Source: Escallonia rubra
Lineage: Eukaryota > Streptophyta > Magnoliopsida > Escalloniales > Escalloniaceae
Direction of reading: 5' to 3'
Assembly (NCBI GenBank): GCA_033065855.1
Contig: JAVXUO010000069.1
Coordinates: forward strand, 62,001-126,000
DNA length: 64,000 bases
Translations under genes and position numbers: made by a program
Shown: piece after piece, positions 19,062-20,940 of the stretch
Layout: every line of letters begins with the position of its first letter
Numbering within the stretch: the first letter of the stretch is position 1
The notes under the pieces: model-generated
What the model was told of the DNA's origin: nothing
Databases searched by the model: none
The model's input: only the letters and a program-made list of their open reading frames with translations

Positions 19062-19551
19062 AATTTAAACCGCCACATGAATTTAATGATTTGCTAACAT
19101 GCACACCGTTACTTTGATTAATGCTGACGCACATTGGACTAATTAAGGCTCTGTTTGGTAACGTTTATTTTTTCAGTCTTTTCTCCAGTTTTGTAAACTG
19201 GAGAAAATAAACGCGTTTGGCACACAGTTTTCGTTTTTTTTTTCTTTTGTTTTAAAAATCAAATTTTAAAACAGGGCTGTTTTTTAAAACTTCAAAAAGG
19301 AGTTTTCGATTTTTATTTTGAGACCACCACCGCCAGCAGCCACTGCCAACCGCCGGCGACCGGCAGCCACCGTCGGCGGCAGGCCACAGCCACGCCCCAC
19401 TGCAAACCACCACCAAAGATTTTTTTTTTTAAATAAAAACTGGGTAATGAAACACCCAAAAGAAAAAACTCAAAATAAAAACTGGATAATCAAACACACA
19501 TTTGTTTTTGTAAAAAAAAAAAAACTAAACTGGTTTTGGTTTTGGTTTTTT

Positions 19552-20887
19552 GGGTTAAATACATGTAGGTATCCTGCAACTACCACAAAGTCTCACTTGA
19601 GGGTCCCAAAGTTTAATTTTTACACATAAGGGCTTGTAACTCCAAATTTGTGATAAGTAAGTACATCCATCCGCATTCCTAACGATCCAGGCTTTTCTGT
19701 CAGGGGCATTTTTGGGATTCCATATTTGTACCCTCAAACATGTGCTATTTTTGGAAAATCAGCATTGAAGACTCTGGTTCAGTTGGATAGTGCCAAAGAA
19801 GATGATTTTGTCACTAGGGTTTTGAAGGAAAACCCTAGCCAAGTTGAAACCAAGTATACGACCGGTGGAAAATTGTATACATTGAATGAAAAAGAGGGTT
19901 TGGCGAAGAAAAGTATTGATTCTAGGGTTTTCAAAATTCTAAAGAAGTTAAATTTGATGGCATTGTCAAAGAAGCATGATGGGGAGGATAATGTGCAGTC
20001 TGGAAATGTGTACTTGAAGGATATCTTGAGGCAAGCACAATAGCACTAGGGGAAGGAAAGAGACGTAACTGATTGACCTGGTCTAGGGTGAGAATAACAT
20101 GTGTTCTCTTCAAACTAGGTTTTCATGGGCGGGCTATTGAGAATCATGAGGTTCTTATATCAGAATCCCTACGAGACCAATGCTCCTAGATCTACTTCGT
20201 TGCTCGCTCTTCAGCAGACCCCGCCATTCGATAGGGAAGCTGTATGTTCCAGAGCAGATATTTGGAAAGAATTTTTCTGAAGATGATGAATTTGATCGGA
20301 ACATTGAAGTGCTGCCAAAAATGAGCATTGAGGATTTTGAGAAATTCATGAAGAGTGATAAAGGTGGGAAGTAAAGTGAGGGCGGGGGATGATTGGCGAC
20401 GGGGGGATGCGGGGCAGTGAGGCCGTAGGGGCAGCGGCGGCGCCAAGGGGTGCGGTGTGAAGAAGGAGATTGGGGATTAGGGTTTTTTTTCGGATTAGGG
20501 TCGAAGGAGAGAGGCAGTGTGCAGGTCGGGTGGATGGGTTAGGTAACGGGTTATGGGTCTAGGGTTGGATCCTGGCTTCGTTAAAGGAAGAGATGCGCGG
20601 GTGGGTCACGCACAGGTCGGGCAGGGGGGGCGGGTTCTCACGGGCTGGTTCTGCCCTATGTTTCTTTTGATTTTGAATTTTGAATTCTTTTTGGCAGCCC
20701 CAAGGAGATTTTTCAAATATGGAATCCCAATGCCCCTGACGTAAAAGCCTGGATCGTTAGGAATGTGGACGGATGTACTTACTTATCGCAAATTTGGAGT
20801 TATAGGCCCTTATGTGTAAAAATTAAACTTTGGGACCCTCAAGTGACACTTTGTGGTAGTTTTAGGGTACCTACGTGTATTTAACCC
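19552..20887 (+). mobile_element. Pack-MULE (Mutator-like, gene-capturing)
   Basis: Terminal inverted repeats of about 175 bp occupy 19552-19728 and 20714-20887. Both begin GGGTTAAATACAYGTAGGTA (second read on the minus strand) and match along their length with few changes. Flanks form a 9-bp near-duplication, tggtttttt and ttgtttttt. Long inverted repeats and a 9-bp duplication are hallmarks of Mutator-like elements. The inside has no transposase and carries pieces of a host gene, which defines a Pack-MULE. The GC-rich 3' part of the interior (20375-20660) is of unknown origin. Confidence 0.88.
19753..20374 (+). pseudogene. FTSH12: captured FTSH12-like gene fragment
   Basis: Two exon-like pieces lie inside the Pack-MULE. 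Piece one, 19753-20034, reads KSALKTLVQLDSAKEDDFVTRVLKENPSQVE and ends GNVYLKDILR. Piece two, from an acceptor-like AG at 20239 to the stop at 20374, reads GKLYVPEQIFGKNFSEDDEF and then LPKMSIEDFEKFMKSDK. Together they resemble the region ahead of the AAA+ domain of the chloroplast protein FTSH12, a partner of the inactive FtsHi proteins in plastid import and division. The 200 bases between them do not fit that gene and may be intron or another captured piece. The AAA+ and protease domains are absent. The identity comes from remembered family sequence, so it is likely but not certain. Confidence 0.65.
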
Positions 20888-20940
20888 TTGTTTTTTTGGA
20901 AACAGAAAATCAAAACTGGAAGTGATTTCAAACGCTACCT

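Follow-up and report, generated by a model that had tools for sequence, protein, structure and literature searches.

Terminal repeats and copy family

The window analysed here, a 64,000-nucleotide stretch of Escallonia rubra DNA (contig JAVXUO010000069.1, corresponding to C2135:62001-126000 in a genome assembly of 566 Mb and 3222 contigs), carries at 19552-20887 an element with long inverted ends, the interior of which consists largely of gene pieces and an insert (Table 1). The inverted ends are complementary at 92% between 19552-19710 and 20729-20887, and their alignment reaches 19728/20714 (91.5% over 177 columns), so that the long inverted repeats recognised in a preliminary description of this DNA were upheld. 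Long terminal inverted repeats of Pack-MULEs typically measure 100-500 bp (PMC3310237).

Table 1. Features of the element and of its target site, in window positions.
Feature	Position	Strand	Remarks
Left target site duplication (TSD) copy TGGTTTTTT	19543-19551		8/9 identical to right TSD copy
Left terminal inverted repeat (TIR), 177 bp	19552-19728	+	About 92% to reverse complement of 20714-20887
Captured FTSHI1 exon 1, first part, 312 bp	19720-20031	+	292/312 identical to parent L009 2854-3165; overlaps left repeat end by 9 bp
Mosaic insert, 201 bp, in place of 8 bp GAGTACAA of the FTSHI1 exon	20032-20232		Present in all three full-length copies found
Filler F1, 51 bp	20029-20079	+	C3028:705418-705468; first three bases AGG common with FTSHI1 at joint
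49 bp, no source found	20080-20128		No match in whole-insert genome searches
Filler F2, 48 bp	20129-20176	-	C950:526354-526401, between two mitochondrial matches in mosaic stretch
21 bp, no source found	20177-20197		No match in whole-insert genome search (window query)
Filler F3, 35 bp	20198-20232	-	C3028:363310-363344; no common bases seen at FTSHI1 joint
Captured FTSHI1 exon 1, second part, 129 bp	20233-20361	+	126/129 identical to parent L009 3174-3302
G+C-rich backbone (57% G+C)	20362-20713		Common to non-capture family members from about 20384-20403 onward
Right terminal inverted repeat, 174 bp	20714-20887	-	Pairs with left repeat
Right TSD copy TTGTTTTTT	20888-20896		8/9 identical to left TSD copy

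The flanking 9-mers of the window copy lie at a T-rich site and are weak evidence when taken alone. The TSDs were judged against the 9-11 bp of Pack-MULEs in a sample of 20 elements: all three full-length copies, the window copy included, and 17 partial relatives out of 36. An exact 9-bp duplication was present in 14/20 (C824, a T run, is uninformative) and an 8/9 duplication in three, the window copy included. The other three (C957, C2909, and C2587) had none at the coordinates set, where the right end of C957 is estimated and C2909 has 8/8. The 9-bp near-duplication that had been pointed out at this locus is confirmed. In the T-rich DNA adjoining the element, a 29-bp near-perfect palindrome occupies 19179-19207, and the insertion site itself may be an older repeat. 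A hAT-like element was suspected around the insertion site and rejected, as the empty site is without convincing end repeats.

In a genome search with the element, the 40 matches scored of 841 candidates comprise three full-length copies, 36 relatives, and the parent gene; a search with the left end gave 40 scored matches of 977 first-look candidates. Besides the window copy, the full-length copies are located at C82:32715-34059 (90%) and C1937:159648-160976 (89%), while the 36 relatives have the right-hand half and the ends in common with the window element. The C82 and C1937 copies are the same insertion, with TSD TAAAAGGAA on both sides. Piecewise collinearity of their surroundings (C82:21001-42185 and C1937:148361-165545), at 94-97% over about 17-21 kb, marks these as alleles or a segmental duplication. 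Separate insertions on these two contigs are ruled out by the common flanks and the collinearity, and the three copies thus correspond to two insertion events. In the printed part of the alignment, the 17 partial relatives agree in their ends and right-hand backbone, but their left interiors are of at least three kinds, some with common parts; acquisition or exchange of the interior seems to be recurrent among them.

The captured FTSHI1 exon

By similarity to proteins of known structure, the captured gene is identified as FTSHI1, a nuclear gene for a chloroplast protein that is an inactive FtsH homologue. In Arabidopsis, FTSHI1 is also named ARC1. The only significant PDB match of the first piece is the FTSHI1 chain 8xku_E over residues 69-147 (E 1.3e-12; next match E 0.92), and the best match of the second piece is the same chain over residues 146-192 (E 5.1e-13; next match E 0.011). 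The gene had previously been taken for FTSH12. This assignment has to be replaced, since 8xku_E is the best chain for both pieces and for exon 1 of the parent gene; no FTSH12 chain occurs among the PDB matches listed for these queries, and the PDB may be without one. Pfam gave no family for the first piece or for parent exon 1, and only an FF-domain match below the cut-off for the second piece.

The parent gene, which the preliminary description proposed to seek in the same genome, was found on contig C2070. Its exon 1 (262674-263420) has 249 open codons up to the first likely splice site and matches FTSHI1 at E 2.2e-54 (next match E 0.17). The AAA+ exons follow further on, with two AAA matches that exceed the Pfam cut-off and a lid domain that falls short of it, and one further exon again has FTSHI1 as its best PDB chain (E 5.4e-37). 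DNA identity to this gene is 94% for the first piece and 98% for the second, and the captured block begins at parent codon 61. In parent exon 1, the two pieces are only 8 bp apart. Both of the gene pieces described before are therefore real, but they are not separate pieces: they form one contiguous exon-1 stretch split by the 201-bp insert. Contiguity of the pieces in a nearby intact gene had been regarded as an argument against capture. They are indeed contiguous but for 8 bp; as the gene lies elsewhere, on a different contig, this speaks for capture and not against it. Together, the terminal repeats, the TSDs, and the FTSHI1 fragment with its parent on C2070 sustain the view of the element as a Pack-MULE with gene capture.

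FTSHI1 exon 1 occurs a second time at C2201:41124-41441, in a degenerate form that contains two stops (75% protein identity; 84.6% identity with the parent across 298 columns) and whose match begins at parent residue 126. It was rejected as the donor, having 80-86% identity to the element pieces (96% in a 26-bp stretch) versus 94-98% for C2070.

The mosaic insert and its sources

The 201 bp between the two pieces are not FTSHI1, which was not recognised in the preliminary description. In a whole-genome search, the window insert matched its own three copies and three other places, namely the sources of F1 (92%, E 2.8e-12), F2 (96%, E 2.3e-13), and F3 (94%, E 2.6e-6). When the C1937 insert served as the query, F1 was found at 98% (E 2.7e-16) and F2 at 96%, and the F3 match was not recovered. 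In the window, C82, and C1937 copies, respectively, identity to the source is 47/51, 49/51, and 50/51 for F1, 46/48, 44/48, and 46/48 for F2, and 33/35, 32/35, and 31/35 for F3. Of the 134 filler columns, 117 are identical to the source in every copy; the others depart from it in one copy (13 columns), in two copies (1), or in all three (3). As 13 of the 17 differing columns are private to one copy, this pattern fits true sources followed by private mutations. For 70 of the 201 bases, no source was found in the genome searches. A pattern search with 20080-20103 (24 bp, three mismatches allowed) gave the three copies and five further matches, all at three mismatches; these are at chance level, the backward control giving three. 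The insert read backwards had no match in the genome, an empty answer that is weak as a control by itself.

Two of the three sources lie 342 kb apart in C3028, a contig of 795,000 bp that was assigned to the mitochondrion on account of an uninterrupted cox1 frame of 535 codons. This contig represents 0.14% of the assembly, and the chance that at least two of three random matches would fall there is about 6e-6. Five of six 10-kb stretches of C3028 have 43-45% G+C, and the sixth has 33% with 2500 N counted in its length. The corresponding values are 39% for the window and 38, 39, and 44% for three stretches of C950; one C950 stretch being like C3028, G+C is only supporting and does not separate the contigs alone. 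Plastid ycf2 leader sequence was also found in C3028; together with the FTSHI1 gene, it identifies the genome as that of a plant.

The third source is on C950. This contig was considered nuclear, given an end repeat of the window-element family (C950:237153-237329) and frames that, on reading, were labelled retrotransposon-like. A 950-bp stretch of this contig (C950:526151-527100; L037 5151-6100) has 24 matches, 12 of them, each of 40-86 bp at 87-99%, to places dispersed through C3028, and several of the mitochondrial matches overlap by 1-3 bp at their joints. Judged from these matches, the stretch appears to be a finely shredded mosaic numt. F2 occupies positions 700-747 of it, between C3028 matches at 617-702 and 743-810. 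F2 itself has no match in C3028, and it is probably mitochondrial too, derived from sequence that C3028 lacks.

At the outer joints of the insert, AGG is common to both partners on the left, no overlap is seen on the right, and 8 bp of the exon are lost. Of the traits of complex numts, two or more fragments from separate mitochondrial places are seen in F1 and F3; joints that are blunt or overlap by 1-7 bp are a further trait. A retained intron was discarded as an explanation, since at this place the coding exon of the parent continues without interruption through the 8 bp, and so were independent captures in the three copies, all of which have the same insert with the same joints. The insert, being common to the three copies, predates the transposition that separated them. 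A rather unlikely origin of the insert is copying in one block from a mosaic numt already present in the nucleus, instead of assembly at the break. C950 carries such a mosaic, in which F2 fills the gap between two mitochondrial matches, but within the sensitivity of the insert searches no locus except the three copies has two of the pieces adjoining.

Probable history, coding potential, and mobility

With high confidence, the element can be explained as a Pack-MULE whose FTSHI1 exon was broken, patched with mosaic mitochondrial filler, and then copied by transposition. A non-autonomous Mutator-like element, of the family with GGGTYAAATACACG ends, would have taken up a 449-bp stretch of FTSHI1 exon 1 in sense orientation. 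A break within the captured stretch would have cost 8 bp, and end joining would have sealed it with three or more short foreign pieces, of which two are mitochondrial and one is common with the C950 mosaic. The finished element would then have transposed, giving rise to the window copy and to one further insertion that is now on two collinear contigs. End joining is the probable repair route, since the 8 lost bases, the AGG at one joint, and the lack of overlap at the other fit it; joints of this type with small loss have been reported for complex numts (PMC6215612). The insert may have arrived before, during, or after the capture.

The two ends are predicted to pair nearly throughout and could form a long hairpin, and a read-through transcript folding end-to-end might bring FTSHI1 sense sequence into silencing of the parent, as siRNAs of captured sequences have been reported for maize elements (PMC13317346). 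Such small-RNA action is improbable, as the FTSHI1 part is present once, in sense orientation between the ends, and is not itself double-stranded.

It is somewhat less credible that the insert was already in an FTSHI1 allele or paralogue when this was captured. All three copies carry the insert, so that it may be older than the capture, and the C2201 remnant is a second exon-1 copy. However, the present parent is without the insert, the remnant has the lower identity given above and starts at residue 126 rather than at the captured codon 61, and the stops of the insert would break exon 1, with no other open copy among 10 matches.

The 105-codon open frame previously noted at 19726-20043 exists. 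Its sole ATG is at codon 78 of 105 and it ends inside the insert, and by its sequence it does not appear to be an obvious translation unit. The window copy also has a 128-codon stop-free frame. In C82 and C1937, a T-rich replacement causes a frameshift and later stops; C1937 has a stop at the second captured codon and C82 one in the second piece. In six comparisons, dN/dS was 0.32-0.53 between the copies and 0.64-0.79 when a copy was set against the parent. Fisher tests on four comparisons gave one significant result (C82-C1937, p 0.04), the other three giving p 0.11-0.25, which leaves purifying selection on the frame unsupported. A functional chimeric protein is thus disfavoured on sequence grounds: that the element encodes one under selection is very improbable, the 128-codon frame and the low dN/dS between copies being outweighed by the lack of an early ATG, the stops just inside the insert, the frameshifts and stops in C82 and C1937, and the three non-significant comparisons. 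The copies are presumably without protein function.

The element is composed of parts of known kinds in an unusual combination. It resembles the Pack-MULEs and Pack-TYPE elements of PMC3310237 and PMC8903248 in its long inverted ends, 9-bp TSD, host gene fragment, size of about 1.3 kb, and multi-locus interior; it is unlike them, as far as the available text of these papers goes, in that its second donor is mitochondrial-type, in pieces of 35-51 bp, and lies inside the captured exon instead of beside it. Like complex numts and other mosaic organelle insertions (PMC6215612 and PMC7037861), it combines distant mitochondrial fragments with outer joints that look short-overlapping or blunt and a small loss at the break, whereas, compared with the available text of those reports, its insert is inside a transposon and present at a second insertion site. 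The gap filling of Pack-TIR elements (FoSTeST, PMC8277862) likewise involves a break in a TIR element that is filled from other templates, with short common bases at the joints, followed by a multicopy state, but the available description concerns animals, and the window element is from a plant and has mitochondrial-type fillers. No description of mitochondrial filler inside a Pack-MULE was found in titles and the starts of abstracts; most subscription papers lie outside this search, which does not show absence from print.

The mechanism by which MULEs acquire sequences was called not yet understood in 2012 (PMC3310237), and break repair or aberrant excision was proposed later for related elements (PMC8277862, PMC13317346). 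A sharp-jointed mitochondrial-type filler within a captured exon ties acquisition, or later damage, to break repair, and the common insert records a single event, older than the divergence of the copies. The case further suggests that a transposon can carry organelle DNA along and so make it mobile within the nucleus. Only tentatively can this be extended to Pack-MULEs in general, which might take up free nuclear DNA, including mitochondrial scraps, during break repair and then multiply the resulting mosaic numt. If true, part of the 'unknown' interior of Pack-MULEs may consist of shredded organelle DNA that transposition has spread.

Mobilisation was probably effected in trans by a MuDR-type transposase. 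Genome-wide, 150 MuDR-type transposase domains were scored of 3309 candidates, many of them in frames open for about 777-783 codons, which points to recent MULE activity in this genome; none of the 150 was shown to have the ends of the window-element family. At C215:44333-49026, a 4.7-kb pair of ends of the window-element family encloses a match to the MuDR DNA-binding domain PF03108 (19.2 bits versus a cut-off of 25 bits). No catalytic domain was seen by eye in 1.5 kb of its middle (L056), and the pair is possibly a damaged autonomous relative.
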